NCBI GenBank assembly: GCA_944392275.1
Contig: CALXWA010000001.1
Span: 130,737 to 194,736, forward strand
Origin: an uncultured Alphaproteobacteria bacterium
Lineage (GTDB): Bacteria; Pseudomonadota; Alphaproteobacteria; RF32; CAG-239
Length of the DNA stretch: 64,000 nt
Direction of reading: 5' to 3'
A model generated the notes under the pieces. It had not been told where the DNA came from. It did not search any database and saw nothing but the letters and a program-made list of their open reading frames with translations. Made by a program: the position numbers and the translations under genes. Position 1 is the stretch's first letter, and the number at the start of each line of letters is the position of its first letter. Of this stretch, positions 22,670 through 62,337 are shown one piece after another.

Positions 22670-23440
22670 ATGACAGAAGTTTTATTTAATGGCTATGCCG
22701 GACGCTTGGAAGGGCGTTATCATCAGAGTGACAATCCGTCAGCTCCGATTGCATTGATTTTACATCCGCATCCGCAATACGGCGGGACAATGAATAATAA
22801 GGTTGTTTATACGTTGTTCAGTTGTTTCCAAAACTTAGGTTTTTCGGTTTTGCGTTTTAATTTCCGCAGTGTCGGACGTTCTCAAGGGGAGTTTGAGGAC
22901 GGCCCGGGAGAGCTTTCCGATGCCACGGTTGCCCTAAACTGGCTTCAGTCCGTCAATCCGGAGGCCAGACAATGCTGGATTGCCGGATATTCGTTTGGAG
23001 CATGGATTGGTTTGCAACTTCTCATGCGTCGTCCGGACATTAATAATTTTATTGCGGTATCTCCACCGGCAAATGAAAAAGATTTTTCATTCTTAGCTCC
23101 ATGTCCAACTTCAGGTTTAATTACACAAGGCTGTATTGATGAAATTGTTACTCCGGCCAGTGTGACCTCGTTGGTCAAAAGGCTAAACACCCAACGCAAC
23201 GTTTCGGTAGACTACGCAATGATAGAAGATGCCGACCATATGTATAATAATCATTTGACTGATTTATACAAGGTTGTAGGGCATTATATCATAGACGCCA
23301 TGAAGAAACGCACCCCGACCAAAAAACGTCGCGGCCGTCGTAAAAAATCAGAAATGATGGAAGAGCAAGATGAGACACTTTTGCTTGAAAATGATAGCGA
23401 AGACTCCATGGATGATGATTTTGGTGACGATGAAGAATAA
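22670..23440 (+). CDS. Alpha/beta hydrolase with basic-acidic C-terminal tail
   Basis: A 256-aa alpha/beta hydrolase of the short COG2945 type. LHPHPQYGGTMNNKVV corresponds to the oxyanion region, GYSFGAWIG carries the nucleophile Ser, and IEDADHMYNN carries the catalytic His. The core ends near residue 210. After it come about 15 basic residues (KKRTPTKKRRGRRKKSEMM) and then a strongly acidic tail ending DDDFGDDEE. Substrate unknown. Followed by two stacked hairpins. Confidence 0.85.
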   Translation: MTEVLFNGYAGRLEGRYHQSDNPSAPIALILHPHPQYGGTMNNKVVYTLFSCFQNLGFSVLRFNFRSVGRSQGEFEDGPGELSDATVALNWLQSVNPEARQCWIAGYSFGAWIGLQLLMRRPDINNFIAVSPPANEKDFSFLAPCPTSGLITQGCIDEIVTPASVTSLVKRLNTQRNVSVDYAMIEDADHMYNNHLTDLYKVVGHYIIDAMKKRTPTKKRRGRRKKSEMMEEQDETLLLENDSEDSMDDDFGDDEE

Positions 23441-23465
23441 TAAATAATCAAGAACAAATCGTTTT

Positions 23466-23578
23466 CTCAGCCCCTTGAAATGAGGGGCTGTTTTTTATGC
23501 CTCTTTTTAAAAAGAGGCGTTTTTTGTTTCAAGGAGGAAACAGGCTGTAATGAAGAAAAGAGGTTTCAAGAAATTTTG
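23466..23578 (+). repeat. Upstream element, copy 1 of 2 (matches 60735-60848)
   Basis: About 113 bp nearly identical to 60735-60848, both lying a few hundred bases upstream of a DUF285-type surface-protein gene. In order it holds a CAGCCCCT/AGGGGCTG hairpin with T6 (23468-23496), the 20-bp palindrome GCCTCTTTTT/AAAAAGAGGC with T6 (23499-23525), the block GTTTCAAGGAGGAAAC, and a mini-ORF at 23550-23603 (MKKRGFKKFCPHFVLIH) whose first nine residues match the other copy's MKKKGFKKF. The hairpins are terminator-like and can end the hydrolase transcript. Confidence 0.85.
23468..23525 (+). terminator. Two tandem terminator hairpins after the hydrolase gene
   Basis: Hairpin 1 (23468-23490) followed by T6; hairpin 2 (23499-23518) followed by GT6. 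Both have the rho-independent layout. Confidence 0.8.
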
Positions 23579-23599
23579 TCCTCATTTTGTTTTAATACA

Positions 23600-23628
23600 T
23601 TGACATGTAAGGGAAATCAGGGTAAAAT
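23600..23628 (+). promoter_or_regulatory. Sigma70 promoter of the long surface-protein gene
   Basis: TTGACA (23600-23605), exactly 17 bp, then TAAAAT (23623-23628). Near-consensus, predicting a 5' leader of about 118 nt. The -35 box overlaps the stop codon of the upstream mini-ORF. The equivalent place in the short copy has no comparable promoter. Confidence 0.75.
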
Positions 23629-23752
23629 AGATGTGTAATGTGCGGAAAGATAAAAGCTATCCATATATCACACACATACATATTTCAACAGCTTTTATAA
23701 AAAATATCGCTTTCCGCCATTACGCCGGTTAAGGATTGTGGAGGGCGGTGTC

Positions 23753-26287
23753 ATGCAGAAGCGTATCTTAGGATTGATAGGAATCATCGTATTATGGTCA
23801 AATTTAGCTGAAGCATCAATTGTATCTTTGCCTCGATATACGGGAGATATCAGTTCCCGATATAATGAAGCCAATATTGGCAAGACGGAAAAATTGAGTT
23901 GTGCAGAGCGAGGCAAAGTTGATAAGCCAAGTGATAGCTGTCAAAAGTGTGTTAACGAATATGCGGGATGTTGTGATTATATTGAATGTAGCACCGCTTC
24001 CAATTGTTATAAATATACTTCGGCTGATGCAGAAAAATATACCTGTGCGTCCTCGTGTCAAGATCGGTCTGGAAAACATTACAAAGATTGTCGTTATCAG
24101 TTAACGTGTAAAGATGTCTTGGGGATGACCACGGAAGAAGCCAGTCCGTATATAGCGGCGGGATTTTATTGCTCTCAAGCAAAAACAACATGTAAGATTG
24201 TAAATGGAACGACCCTTGGATCCTGTAAGCAATCTTCAGTATCATTAGGTGGAGAGAGTAACAGTGGTTCTTTAGGAGGAATGACTTCCGGAGGCAGTAC
24301 CTCAGAACAAAGTATTATTTGTTATACCTGTGCGTGTCCGGAAGGGACCTATAATACTGTTCAGGGAGGAAAAAGCTGTACGGTTAGCCACCAAGTTGGT
24401 AACAGTAAATGTTATACGTGTGGCTGTCCGGCCGGAACCTATGGAGAAGATTGTAAGGCTTGTCCGACGGGGAGTTACAGCAGTACGGCAGGAGCCTCTA
24501 CGTGTAGAGGATGTCCGGCAGGATATGGGTCTAAGACAGGGGTAACGGGAGCCACCAGTCAGGAAGCAGCATGTTCAATTTGTCCGCAAGGAACGTATAA
24601 AGCCAATATTGGCCTGGGAAGTTGTACCGCTTGTCCGACCGGGTATGACGCCATTGCCGGAGTAACCGGAGCAACCAGTGTTACGCAGGCCTGTGCACGG
24701 TCTTGTGTTCCGTGTGATCGTGCAAGTTATCCGTTAAGTAGTTGCCCGGCACATGCGATTTGTGAAGAATGTACTCCGAAATATTGTGATAATACCGCCA
24801 AATCGTATAAAATTACCTCTTGTGAAGGGGGATATGCCCTATCAGGAAATGCTTGCAAGAAAGATGGTGGGGCTATTAAAATGGTAATAGATACCAGTTT
24901 GGATACCAATTTTCGATTTGCTGTACAGCGTTCTGCCGAGTTTAATATAAATGTTGATTGGGGAGATGGAGTAAAAGAAAATTACCAAGGAGCCACAGGA
25001 GATACACTTATTAGCCATGCCTATACTAATAGTGGAAAATATACGGTAACAATTACAGGTGTCCTTCCGACATTGTATCAAATAACTACATACAATATTG
25101 TTGAATTAAAACAGTTCAATCTTTCTACGATTAAAAGCCTTTATACTACGTTTAGTGGTCATAAAGAATTCACGGGAAGTATTCCAGAATTACCTAAAAA
25201 TTTGGAATTGGGGCAGTATGCGTTCGCTAACAGTGGGATAACGGGAACCATACCGGATTTACCAGATAGTTTGAAAAATGGAAACTATATGTTCTCCGGT
25301 TGTAGTGGTTTGACGGGAACTATCCCAGCATTACCGGATAGTTTGACCAATGGAACTAATATGTTCAAAAGTTGTAGTGGTTTGACGGGAACTATCCCAG
25401 CATTACCGGATAGTTTGACCAATGGAACTTCTATGTTCGAATATTGTAGTGGTTTGACGGGAATGACCTCTCATATTTCAACTAGTTTGACGAATGGAAC
25501 TTCTATGTTCTCTGGTTGTAGTGGTTTGACGGGAACTATCCCAGCATTACCGGATAGTTTGACCAATGGATCTGATATGTTCTCTGGTTGTAGCAGCTTA
25601 AAGGGAACCATCCCAGCCTTACCGGATAGCTTGACAGATGGAATTTATATGTTCTCTAATTGTAGCAGCTTAACGGGAACCATACCGGCCTTACCGGATA
25701 GCTTGACCAAAGCTGCTGGTATGTTTTATCGCTGTAGTAGTTTGACAGGAATGACATCCCATTTACCAACTAATTTGACCAATGGATCTTATATGTTCGA
25801 ATATTGTAGTAAATTAACAGGAAGCATTCCAACATTACCAACAAGCTTGAAGGATGGAAGCTTTATGTTTGATGGTTGTAGTAAATTAACGGGAACCATA
25901 CCAGCATTACCGGATAGCTTGACTAATGGAACTTATATGTTCTCAGACTGTAGCGGATTGACAAAATTGCCATCACATTTTTCAACTAATTTGACAAATG
26001 CCAACGCTATGTTTATTAATTGTAGCGGACTAACGGGAAACATACCGGCATTACCAAATAGTTTGACAAGCGGAGATAGAATGTTTCAAAATTGTAGCAA
26101 ATTATGGGGGTTTGCCACAACAAATCTGCCGTCAAGTTTATATAATGCAGCTTATATGTTCTATGGTTGCAGTTATTTGAGCGGTAGAACTCCTCAAAAA
26201 CCATCGGGATTAGCCTTCTATTCACAGATCTTCAAAGGGACTAAACTAACTAACGATGGTTCTTGGCCATCCAATGCTTGGCAGTAA
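23753..26287 (+). CDS. Cys-rich, PKD-like, BspA/DUF285-type repeat surface protein
   Basis: A secreted or surface-anchored protein of 844 aa. Signal peptide (QKRILGLIGIIVLWSNLAEA). A cysteine-rich region runs from about residue 45 to 365, with repeated CPxGTYxxxxGxxxCxxCP units like the GCC2/ephrin-receptor type. A PKD-like strand domain (NINVDWGDGVKENY, about residues 375-455) follows. Then come 13 units of about 24 residues (513-825) of the MFxxCSxLTGTIP pattern, the DUF285/BspA-like leucine-rich repeat. The tail ends TNDGSWPSNAWQ. Start at 23753 has GGAGG 8 nt upstream; an in-frame GTG 15 nt earlier is rejected. Likely host- or matrix-binding; function not shown. Confidence 0.85.
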   Translation: MQKRILGLIGIIVLWSNLAEASIVSLPRYTGDISSRYNEANIGKTEKLSCAERGKVDKPSDSCQKCVNEYAGCCDYIECSTASNCYKYTSADAEKYTCASSCQDRSGKHYKDCRYQLTCKDVLGMTTEEASPYIAAGFYCSQAKTTCKIVNGTTLGSCKQSSVSLGGESNSGSLGGMTSGGSTSEQSIICYTCACPEGTYNTVQGGKSCTVSHQVGNSKCYTCGCPAGTYGEDCKACPTGSYSSTAGASTCRGCPAGYGSKTGVTGATSQEAACSICPQGTYKANIGLGSCTACPTGYDAIAGVTGATSVTQACARSCVPCDRASYPLSSCPAHAICEECTPKYCDNTAKSYKITSCEGGYALSGNACKKDGGAIKMVIDTSLDTNFRFAVQRSAEFNINVDWGDGVKENYQGATGDTLISHAYTNSGKYTVTITGVLPTLYQITTYNIVELKQFNLSTIKSLYTTFSGHKEFTGSIPELPKNLELGQYAFANSGITGTIPDLPDSLKNGNYMFSGCSGLTGTIPALPDSLTNGTNMFKSCSGLTGTIPALPDSLTNGTSMFEYCSGLTGMTSHISTSLTNGTSMFSGCSGLTGTIPALPDSLTNGSDMFSGCSSLKGTIPALPDSLTDGIYMFSNCSSLTGTIPALPDSLTKAAGMFYRCSSLTGMTSHLPTNLTNGSYMFEYCSKLTGSIPTLPTSLKDGSFMFDGCSKLTGTIPALPDSLTNGTYMFSDCSGLTKLPSHFSTNLTNANAMFINCSGLTGNIPALPNSLTSGDRMFQNCSKLWGFATTNLPSSLYNAAYMFYGCSYLSGRTPQKPSGLAFYSQIFKGTKLTNDGSWPSNAWQ
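25289..26227 (+). repeat. 72-bp in-frame tandem repeats (13 units)
   Basis: Thirteen consecutive units start with ATGTT and encode MFxxC at 72-bp spacing (one unit is 75 bp). Units near 25289, 25361 and 25505 are nearly identical at DNA level over about 55 bp, while those after about 25700 are more diverged. This suggests recent duplication in the first half of the array. Confidence 0.9.
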
Positions 26288-26306
26288 GTCATCGTTAATC
26301 CAAACA

Positions 26307-26338
26307 AAAATCCCTTGCTAACGGGCAAGGGATTTTTA
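26307..26338. terminator. Terminator after the long surface-protein gene
   Basis: AAAATCCCTTGC (26307-26318) pairs with GCAAGGGATTTT (26325-26336). The same sequence class follows the short copy at 61881-61917. It also serves the convergent RHH gene. Confidence 0.85.
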
Positions 26339-26362
26339 ATTAGAAAAAAAAGGAACAAAAAG

Positions 26363-26569
26363 CTATTTTTCGGTTCTTGTTTTTAAAATAAATACCCGAA
26401 TAGCCGAAGACAGATTTTCATGCTCTCGAGAGGCATCTATCTTTGTAATCAACTGATTAACACTGAGGTGTTGTTCTGTAGCGATTTTTTTTAACTCCTC
26501 CCAAAACTCTTCTTCTAAAGAGATACTGGTAGAGTGTCGATTGGCAATAACAACAGAAATTTTACGCAT
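26363..26569 (-). CDS. Ribbon-helix-helix domain protein, 68 aa
   Basis: Small RHH_4-type protein: an initial strand (KISVVIANRHSTSISLEEEF), then two helices (FWEELKKIATEQHLSVNQLI, ASREHENLSSAIRVFIL). In alphaproteobacteria such a gene commonly follows sspB. DNA binding is expected but no target is known. It overlaps the end of sspB by 8 bp. The start is the Met aligning with the RHH strand; longer readings run through sspB. Confidence 0.85.
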   Translation of the reverse strand: MRKISVVIANRHSTSISLEEEFWEELKKIATEQHLSVNQLITKIDASREHENLSSAIRVFILKTRTEK

Positions 26570-59537: not shown

Positions 59538-60713
59538 ATGAACGCAAAACAAGTAAAAAAAGACATTTGGTGGGTAGGGGTAAAAGATTGGAATTTGGTC
59601 GAGTTCCACGGCTACAGCACGCCCCGCGGCTCTACCTATAATTCTTATTTAATTATGGATGATAAAATTACTTTGGTTGATGGTGTAAAACACTATCTGT
59701 CAGATGAAATGATAGCCCGCGTAAAAAGCGTTACGGATTTTTCTAAGATTGCTTATGTTGTTGTCAACCATGTTGAGATGGATCACTCCGGCAATATCCC
59801 CGAGGTCATGAAATTGGCTCCGCAAGCGGTTATTATCACCAATGCCGCTGGCAAGAGAGCTTTGGATGAGCATTTTGACACCAGCAATTGGCAGTTCCAA
59901 ATCATCAAAACCGGAGATACGGTATCCATTGGTAAAAGAACATTGTCCTTTGTCACAACACCGATGCTTCACTGGCCTGATTCAATGATGACCTATATTG
60001 CTGAAGAGAAGCTTTTATTGTCCAACGATGGATTCGGACAACATTATTGTACGGACGCCTTGTTTGTTAAAGAAGCTCCTTTTGATGTCGTAATGGATGA
60101 AGCCAAGCGTTATTATGCAAATATTTTGTTCCCATATGGAGCTCAGGCACAAAAAGCCCTCAATACGGCTCATGATTTGAATCTTGATATTGAAATGATA
60201 GCCCCGTCTCATGGCTGTATTTGGCAAGGAGAAGAGGTCAAAAAGATTTTGGACAACTATTGTCGTTGGTCTAGCGGCGAAAATCAAGGAAAGGCCGTTG
60301 TTGTTTATGACACAATGTGGGGAGCCACAGCCAAAATGGCAGAGGTAGTAACTTCCGTTTTTGAAGATGCCGGGATTCCGGTTGTAAAACGTTGTTTAAG
60401 CATGGCTCATATATCCGATGTCATAACAGATTTTATGGATGCAAAATATGTCGCAATCGGTACTCCGACCTTAAACAATGAGCTTTTCCCAAGGGTAGCT
60501 GCCTTTGTAACTTATATGAAAGGCTTGCAACCCAAAAACAAAAAGGCCTTTGCCTTTGCCTCTTATGGCTGGAAACCAGGTGTTGTAAACCAAATCCAAG
60601 CAGTTTATGAACAATTAGGGTGGGAGACAATTCCTCCGTTTGAGGAAAAATATACTCCAAAAGCCGATGTTTTGGAAAAGTTAAAAGAACACGTCAAAAC
60701 CATAATTGCGTAA
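59538..60713 (+). CDS. Flavodiiron protein (rubredoxin:oxygen oxidoreductase)
   Basis: 391 aa. The N-terminal metallo-beta-lactamase-like diiron domain has the NHVEMDHSGN ligand block and a later SHGCIWQG; the C-terminal flavodoxin domain begins VVYDTMWGATAKMAEVV (FMN) with CLSMAHISDV after it. It reduces O2 to water or NO to N2O. AAGGAG with an 8-nt spacer precedes the ATG. It faces perR-rbr across a candidate operator, making an oxygen/peroxide defence unit typical of anaerobes. Confidence 0.96.
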   Translation: MNAKQVKKDIWWVGVKDWNLVEFHGYSTPRGSTYNSYLIMDDKITLVDGVKHYLSDEMIARVKSVTDFSKIAYVVVNHVEMDHSGNIPEVMKLAPQAVIITNAAGKRALDEHFDTSNWQFQIIKTGDTVSIGKRTLSFVTTPMLHWPDSMMTYIAEEKLLLSNDGFGQHYCTDALFVKEAPFDVVMDEAKRYYANILFPYGAQAQKALNTAHDLNLDIEMIAPSHGCIWQGEEVKKILDNYCRWSSGENQGKAVVVYDTMWGATAKMAEVVTSVFEDAGIPVVKRCLSMAHISDVITDFMDAKYVAIGTPTLNNELFPRVAAFVTYMKGLQPKNKKAFAFASYGWKPGVVNQIQAVYEQLGWETIPPFEEKYTPKADVLEKLKEHVKTIIA

Positions 60714-60734: not shown

Positions 60735-60848
60735 CTCAGCCCCTTGAAAAGAGGGGCTGATTTTTTACGCCTCTTTTTAAAAAGAGGCATTTTTTGTTTC
60801 AAGGAGGAAACAGGCTGCAATGAAGAAAAAGGGTTTCAAGAAATTTTG
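60735..60848 (+). repeat. Upstream element, copy 2 of 2 (matches 23466-23578)
   Basis: Nearly identical to the element before the long surface-protein gene: hairpin CAGCCCCT/AGGGGCTG (60737-60759), palindrome GCCTCTTTTT/AAAAAGAGGC (60769-60788), GTTTCAAGGAGGAAAC, and a mini-ORF at 60820-60849 (MKKKGFKKF, stop). The first hairpin also ends the flavodiiron gene. The following 190 bp to the start codon is AT-rich and not clearly similar to copy 1 until about 15 bp before the ATG; no promoter matching the one in copy 1 is visible. Confidence 0.85.
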
Positions 60849-61037
60849 ACCTTAACGTGTTTTGATGCATTAAAAATACAGAAAATAAGTTATCATAAAT
60901 ACAGTGTGATATATGAAGTAACAATATTAAATTTCCAAATTTAATATGTATTTTTGTATAAAAGCGACCCATTTTTATAGAGATAACGCATATATATCAC
61001 GCCACACAAGTTTACGATAAACTCGGAGGGCGGTGTC

Positions 61038-61861
61038 ATGCAGAAGCGTATCTCAGGATTGATAGGAATCATCATTGTATTATGGTCAAATTTAGCCGAG
61101 GCATCCATAGCTTTTTTACCCCGATATACGGGGAATATCAATTCCCGATATAATGAAGCCAATATTGGTCCGGGAAGTTGTGCCGCTTGTCCGACCGGGT
61201 ATGATGCCATTGCCGGAATGGTTGGGGCAACAACACAAGTACAGGCTTGTTCGAAAATCGAAAATGATAGTCCAGAAAATGGTGGAGCTATAAAATTGGT
61301 TGTGATACAAACTTAAATAAAAATGTTAGGATACCTCTTCTGGTCTTCAAAAACGGAGCGACGGTAGAGGTTAATATTGACTGGGGCGATGGCGAACAAA
61401 AAACTTACAAAACTGAAGATAATTTAATTGGTACAACTGCAAATCATACGTATGCTGATAATAATCAGTATATTATCACGATTACGGGTGTGCTTGAATA
61501 CCTTCCAGAGATACCGATAAAAAATATTGTTGAAATAAAACAATTGAATTTATCTAGTTTAGAGAGGTTTAGTTATACCTTTTATAGGCACTATCAATTG
61601 AAAGGCACAATTCCAAATTTGCCTCCTAAGTTAATAAATGGAAATTCTGCATTTAAGGGATGTAGCGGATTAACGGGGAATATTCCAAAATTGTCACAAA
61701 GCCTTGAGTATGCATTTAATATGTTTTCTGGATGTAGCAATTTGACAGGACAAACGCCGATAAAACCATCAGGATTGACTTCTTCTAACTCTTATCAGAG
61801 AATGTTTTCCGGAACACAAGTAACCAATGACGGCTCTTGGACATCCAGTGCTTGGTGGTAA
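61038..61861 (+). pseudogene. Shortened, frameshifted copy of the Cys-rich DUF285 surface protein
   Basis: The start region (GGAGGGCGGTGTC, then ATG) and signal peptide match the long gene at 23753. The reading frame stops at 61314-61316, but the next frame from about 61304 continues with DTNLNKNVRIPLLV, a PKD-like NIDWGDGEQ block, two to three MFxxC repeats and the tail TNDGSWTSSAWW, to 61861. Alignment to the long gene implies loss of one base at about 61299-61304. Only one Cys-rich unit (CAACPTGYDAIAG) remains. A sequencing error or programmed frameshift is not excluded, but there is no slippery run. Confidence 0.8.
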
Positions 61862-61917: not shown

Positions 61918-62337
61918 TTACTTTTTCGCAGAAGAAAAGGAAAATTTATTATGCAAAACAAAAGTAGAAATAGTCGCCAAGAGCGTGTAGAGAAATTGGG
62001 CGACAATTTCGTTCCAAGCAAACAAGTCAATAAACAAAAATAAAAAAGCATAATTGAGCAAAAGCAGGCTCAAATAGACAAAGGCGGCTTTAGCATATTC
62101 TTTTGCCAAATTGCCTTTTCCTTCAAAGACTAAAGACCGCATGCTTAAAATAGAAAAATTAACGGAAAGCAGATAAGTGATAATCAAAACCACCTGATAG
62201 TTCCATTGGAGCCAAGAAATTCCAATAGTAAAAATCAAAAAAGAAAAAACGGTATTTCCGCCACCGACAAGCAAAAAACGCAGTTTTTTGTTAAGCTTAA
62301 ACCAATAAGCAAAGATTTTAGATAAAGAAAACATCAT
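61918..62337 (-). CDS. GtrA-family membrane protein
   Basis: 139 aa with four hydrophobic segments. LRFLLVGGGNTVFSFLIF near the start and FVLHNKFSF at the end are GtrA hallmarks. GtrA proteins are thought to flip polyprenyl-phosphate-linked glucose or related sugars made by a GtrB-type synthase. Start at 62337 overlaps the stop of the GT2 gene (ATGA). A partner synthase of the GtrB/DPM type lies divergently at 63326. Confidence 0.85.
   Translation of the reverse strand: MMFSLSKIFAYWFKLNKKLRFLLVGGGNTVFSFLIFTIGISWLQWNYQVVLIITYLLSVNFSILSMRSLVFEGKGNLAKEYAKAAFVYLSLLLLNYAFLFLFIDLFAWNEIVAQFLYTLLATISTFVLHNKFSFSSAKK

Follow-up and report, generated by a model that had tools for sequence, protein, structure and literature searches.

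The 64-kb stretch of DNA analysed here (the window) carries a long gene for a Cys-rich protein and, at a second locus near 61 kb, a far shorter copy of it, and the question raised is how the short form originated. A sequence-only reading had proposed that the long gene contains a direct repeat, and that an in-frame deletion between its two copies would generate the first half of the short copy.

23738..26287, plus strand: long gene (L021, 849 aa), defined from its open reading frame, translation and Pfam matches

The long gene likely starts at the ATG at 23753, and its product comprises, in this order, a signal-peptide-like leader, a Cys-rich region with ephrin-receptor-like modules, a PKD-like domain (a weak match) and BspA-type leucine-rich repeats (LRR). 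The Pfam E-values are 2.6e-24 for LRR_5, 6.4e-13 for DUF285 and 2.8e-9 for Ephrin_rec_like. Like BspA-like LRR proteins, it has C-terminal repeats that pass the curated Pfam thresholds of LRR_5 (86 bits, cut-off 27.7) and DUF285 (48.9 bits, cut-off 25); unlike them, the family to which it belongs has an N-terminal Cys-rich region with ephrin-receptor-like modules, which in the long protein accounts for 38 Cys between residues 41 and 375. In the region 23440-26363, the gene has an alpha/beta-hydrolase-like gene on one side and an SspB-like pair on the other. Many relatives in the genus have these neighbours directly side by side and no family gene there, and the long gene apparently represents a species-specific insertion at this site.

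23868..23881, plus strand: repeat site 1, AAGCCAATATTGGC, EANIG codons, adjoining the leader
24600..24613, plus strand: repeat site 2, AAGCCAATATTGGC, KANIG codons, within an ephrin-receptor-like Cys module
23881..24612, plus strand: 732-bp stretch with 27 Cys codons, absent from the short copy

The 12-bp word from which the proposal started, AGCCAATATTGG, occurs in three exact copies in the window (23869-23880, 24601-24612 and 61157-61168). The coordinates of the two copies in the long gene, their spacing of 732 bp (244 codons) and their identical codon phase are all as described, and reading letter by letter extends their identity to 14 bp. Between site 1 and the short-copy junction, the identity amounts to 13 bp up to the right limit. 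The 732-bp stretch delimited by the repeats holds 27 of the 38 Cys mentioned above. A repeat of at least 14 bp within the Cys-coding part is found in 1.6% of codon-order shuffles and in 15% of synonymous-codon shuffles that preserve the protein, so that the repeat alone is weak evidence; the element that is not due to chance is the meeting of two unlike flanks exactly on the repeat. Without its first two letters, AAGCCAATATTGGC is a perfect palindrome, and this feature of GCCAATATTGGC led us to consider a site-specific recombination or restriction site. This reading was set aside: the genome has just nine copies of AAGCCAATATTGG, and eight of these lie within genes of the Cys-rich/LRR family, where they encode (E/K)ANIG.

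61038..61861, plus strand: short copy (L022), with leader, one Cys module, PKD-like domain and few LRR units, frameshifted
61156..61168, plus strand: junction microhomology AAGCCAATATTGG, 13 bp, with a site-1-type G at 61155 and a site-2-type T at 61169

The short copy occupies a locus bounded by a flavodiiron gene at 59538 and a GtrA-like gene at 61918. Around its repeat it reads ATGAAGCCAATATTGGT: one copy of the repeat is kept and the outer flanks are joined, a site-1 flank on the left and a site-2 flank on the right. The upstream side matches site 1 at 36 of 39 positions (61130-61168) and the downstream side matches site 2 of the long gene at 60 of 65 in BLAST, ending near 61217, which bears out the earlier description of a single repeat at 61157 preceded by site-1-type and followed by site-2-type sequence. 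The G that precedes the repeat (61155) is of the site-1 type, site 2 having A, and the T at 61169 is of the site-2 type found in the paralogue L026 (C1:368.8-371.3 kb), the long gene having C at both sites. Since diagnostic bases differ on either side, the switch is confined to the 13-bp AAGCCAATATTGG. About 120 bp downstream of the junction, a one-base frameshift breaks the reading frame, the first frame stopping at 61316 and the second being open from 61271 to 61861; for this reason the short copy looks like a pseudogene, in which function would have been lost.

60918..61053, plus strand: promoter and leader start, 136-bp exact match to L024
61218..61276, plus strand: L026-type tail tract, unlike the long gene, defined by diagnostic sites and 96% identical to L026 over 61215-61269

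When the long and short genes are aligned along both flanks, the upstream side follows the long gene as anticipated, and the downstream side departs from it after only ~49 bp. The downstream match had been expected to run through GGGAAGTTGT and on; it holds over those ~49 bp, with T instead of C at 61169, and fails beyond ~61217. Across 61169-61276, 35 diagnostic sites favour L026 and 5 favour the long type. Immediately past the junction, the first 49 bp agree with the long type at four diagnostic sites and with L026 at two, so that an extra switch near 61217 or an unsampled donor is needed. The ~230 bp that follow in the long gene code for a second Cys segment and are absent from L026 and the short copy alike. 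On the other side, the first 51 bp of the leader are 92% identical to L021, L024 and L025, and the remainder of the short copy (PKD and most of the LRR) is ~65-83% identical to any paralogue. Judged from these comparisons, the short copy combines pieces of several sister genes and is not a direct cut from the long gene of the window. The L026-type tail, the missing ~230 bp, the L024-like promoter and the frameshift together call for a further event, unless the parent was already mosaic. The original proposal is thus retained in that the join falls at the repeat, keeps the frame and removes most of the Cys-rich region; it is not retained as regards the parent, for which neither the long gene nor an exact copy of it is supported, the tail being L026-type and the promoter L024-like.

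The source genome (1.56 Mb, nine contigs) contains 11-12 members of the Cys-rich/LRR family. LRR tails are present in L021, L023, L024, L025, L026 and the short copy, and L027, L028, L029 and L032 share the Cys-rich part and have other tails. The repeat pair spaced by 732 bp is found in three members. Site 2 belongs to a Cys module and is conserved across paralogues, six of which (L023, L026-L029 and L032) have the Cys-rich region without the site-1 repeat. The site-1 repeat is therefore peculiar to leaders of the L021/L024/L025 type, and since paralogues devoid of it keep the Cys-rich region, the ancestral form is the long one, from which the short form was derived by loss. Exact identity tracts measure 1013-1044 bp for L021/L024 and L021/L025, 861 bp for L028/L029, 675 bp for L027/L028 and 327 bp for L026 with L021/L024/L025, although near-identical paralogues may have been collapsed in the assembly, so that these exact tracts may hide a few differences. 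Their ends are abrupt and differently placed, identity beyond them falls to ~40-70%, and their lengths were reached in at most about 6 of 1000 permutations of the polymorphic sites (p 0.001-0.006). Exact tracts with abrupt, differing ends that exceed chance point to gene conversion among the paralogues. L026 is itself mosaic, which means that mosaic parents exist. As a separate observation, L027, L028 and L029 have up to 861 bp of identical Cys-coding sequence joined to wholly different tails.

The reading that we favour, and hold to be somewhat probable, is that the 61-kb locus once held a mosaic full-length copy, which underwent a 13-bp microhomology deletion in cis and also acquired a frameshift. 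Gene conversion among paralogues would have produced at this locus a full-length gene with an L024-type promoter and leader, carrying site 1, and an L026-type tail, carrying site 2. About 732 bp would then have been lost in cis between the two 13-bp copies of AAGCCAATATTGG, with the frame kept, by replication slippage or single-strand annealing, and the downstream frameshift would also have been acquired. A parent with both sites would be easily supplied, because the pair with the 732-bp spacing is found in family members. No copy in this genome combines an L024-type leader with an L026-type tail, the three copies with both repeats having another tail; the full-length parent may have been lost or may survive in other strains. 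In E. coli, RecA-independent deletion between short direct repeats has been documented (PMC5426353). A deletion in cis is favoured because short repeats in cis can give rise to deletions without RecA (PMC5426353), and because an exchange in trans has long in-register identity available to it.

Such an exchange in trans is nevertheless the alternative that deserves some consideration, and we regard it as possible but doubtful. An out-of-register crossover or template switch would have joined an L021/L024/L025-type site 1 to an L026-type site 2 at the 13 bp, with no mosaic full-length parent at the locus; it would account for the two sides of the junction matching different extant paralogues and for the lack of site 1 in L026 itself. 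However, the hundreds of bp of in-register identity between paralogues would normally be used for such an event, and the 49 bp that follow the junction are not cleanly L026-type. Moreover, RecA usually needs more than 13 bp, a length that the shared sequence does not exceed. That a copy of the window's long gene underwent an in-frame deletion directly and then diverged is clearly unlikely. Both repeats, their spacing and the frame agree with it, as do the upstream flank and the first 49 bp downstream, but the tail is L026-type from 61218 with the next ~230 bp missing, position 61169 has T against C at both long-gene sites, and the promoter differs. As a single event it is largely refuted by the diagnostic sites, and it could be rescued by a later L026 conversion from 61218.

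It could also be argued that the short form is old and separate and that the long form gained its Cys-rich segment through an insertion that duplicated a 14-bp target, as the extra segment is flanked exactly by both repeats and relatives such as G022 have genes with leader, short Cys modules, PKD-like domain and LRR. We consider this very improbable: six paralogues in the same genome have the Cys-rich region and no site-1 repeat, and site 2 belongs to the Cys module as a conserved element. An equally remote prospect is that the junction is an assembly artefact. Contigs do end within the family, and the long-gene node at 23512-25274 can also be entered from C9 and left through the right end of C1. 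On the other hand, the overlaps at family contig ends are exactly 77 bp long: C1-left overlaps C7-left, C1-right overlaps the long gene at 25198-25274, and C9-right overlaps 23512-23588. This length suggests a short-read assembler run at k=77. As an assembler of this kind should not join sequences at 13 bp, the short-copy junction should be real and read-supported; in addition, the long gene is flanked by genes that neighbour each other in many relatives. At least one other copy shares the 23512-25274 node, where the assembly has probably collapsed another instance of the first 1.7 kb of the long gene.

The favoured deletion in cis from a mosaic parent is an event of a well-known type, a textbook case of microhomology, of which this family provides a new example, and the short copy is an ordinary product of recombination in a repeated gene family. 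It shares with documented deletions between short direct repeats (e.g., PMC5426353) a short perfect repeat, the retention of one copy and the loss of the intervening DNA, and it differs from them in that it is deduced here from one genome and would involve a mosaic parent. The exchange among the paralogues also invites comparison with other systems.

Segmental gene conversion of surface proteins is known from TprK of Treponema, Msp2 of Anaplasma and PilE of Neisseria. The present family resembles those in its exact tracts with variable ends among paralogues and in its truncated or broken genomic copies; it differs in that the one genome of the species shows neither a single expression site nor conserved donor-cassette boundaries. 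The idea of an active diversification system for secreted proteins in an alphaproteobacterium-like host, in which Cys-rich segments and LRR arrays would be exchanged by segmental conversion with short or broken copies as donors, appears improbable. The junction is useful as a marker that an apparently species-private family is being remodelled by recombination, in which the Cys-rich module is kept uniform or removed and the tails (LRR arrays or other domains) remain different. Strain data at the family loci could reveal the speed of this remodelling.

Regarding its distribution, the family is apparently private to the source species. Among the 35 genomes of the genus searched, the long Cys-rich part turned up in none of the other 34, some having the last module only, and the leader with the short junction has no convincing relative in them (one weak match, E 0.007). 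A collection of genome contigs, from which the source species is possibly absent, yielded no relative of the long protein and a sole match, in a Sulfurovum contig, to a 20-base pattern of the site-1 flank, which is probably due to chance. The pattern search of viral contigs returned nothing. The relative G022 contains at least ten LRR genes of the same kind with shorter Cys parts on several contigs (e.g., L033 and L052), and this set is an independent expansion.

60761..60848, plus strand: dispersed repeat upstream of several family members, overlapping the terminator of the preceding gene

This ~88-bp repeat, which overlaps a terminator hairpin, has copies that are 93-94% identical at 23491-23578, at the end of C9 and at C1:206990-207077, and is possibly part of how the family copies spread.
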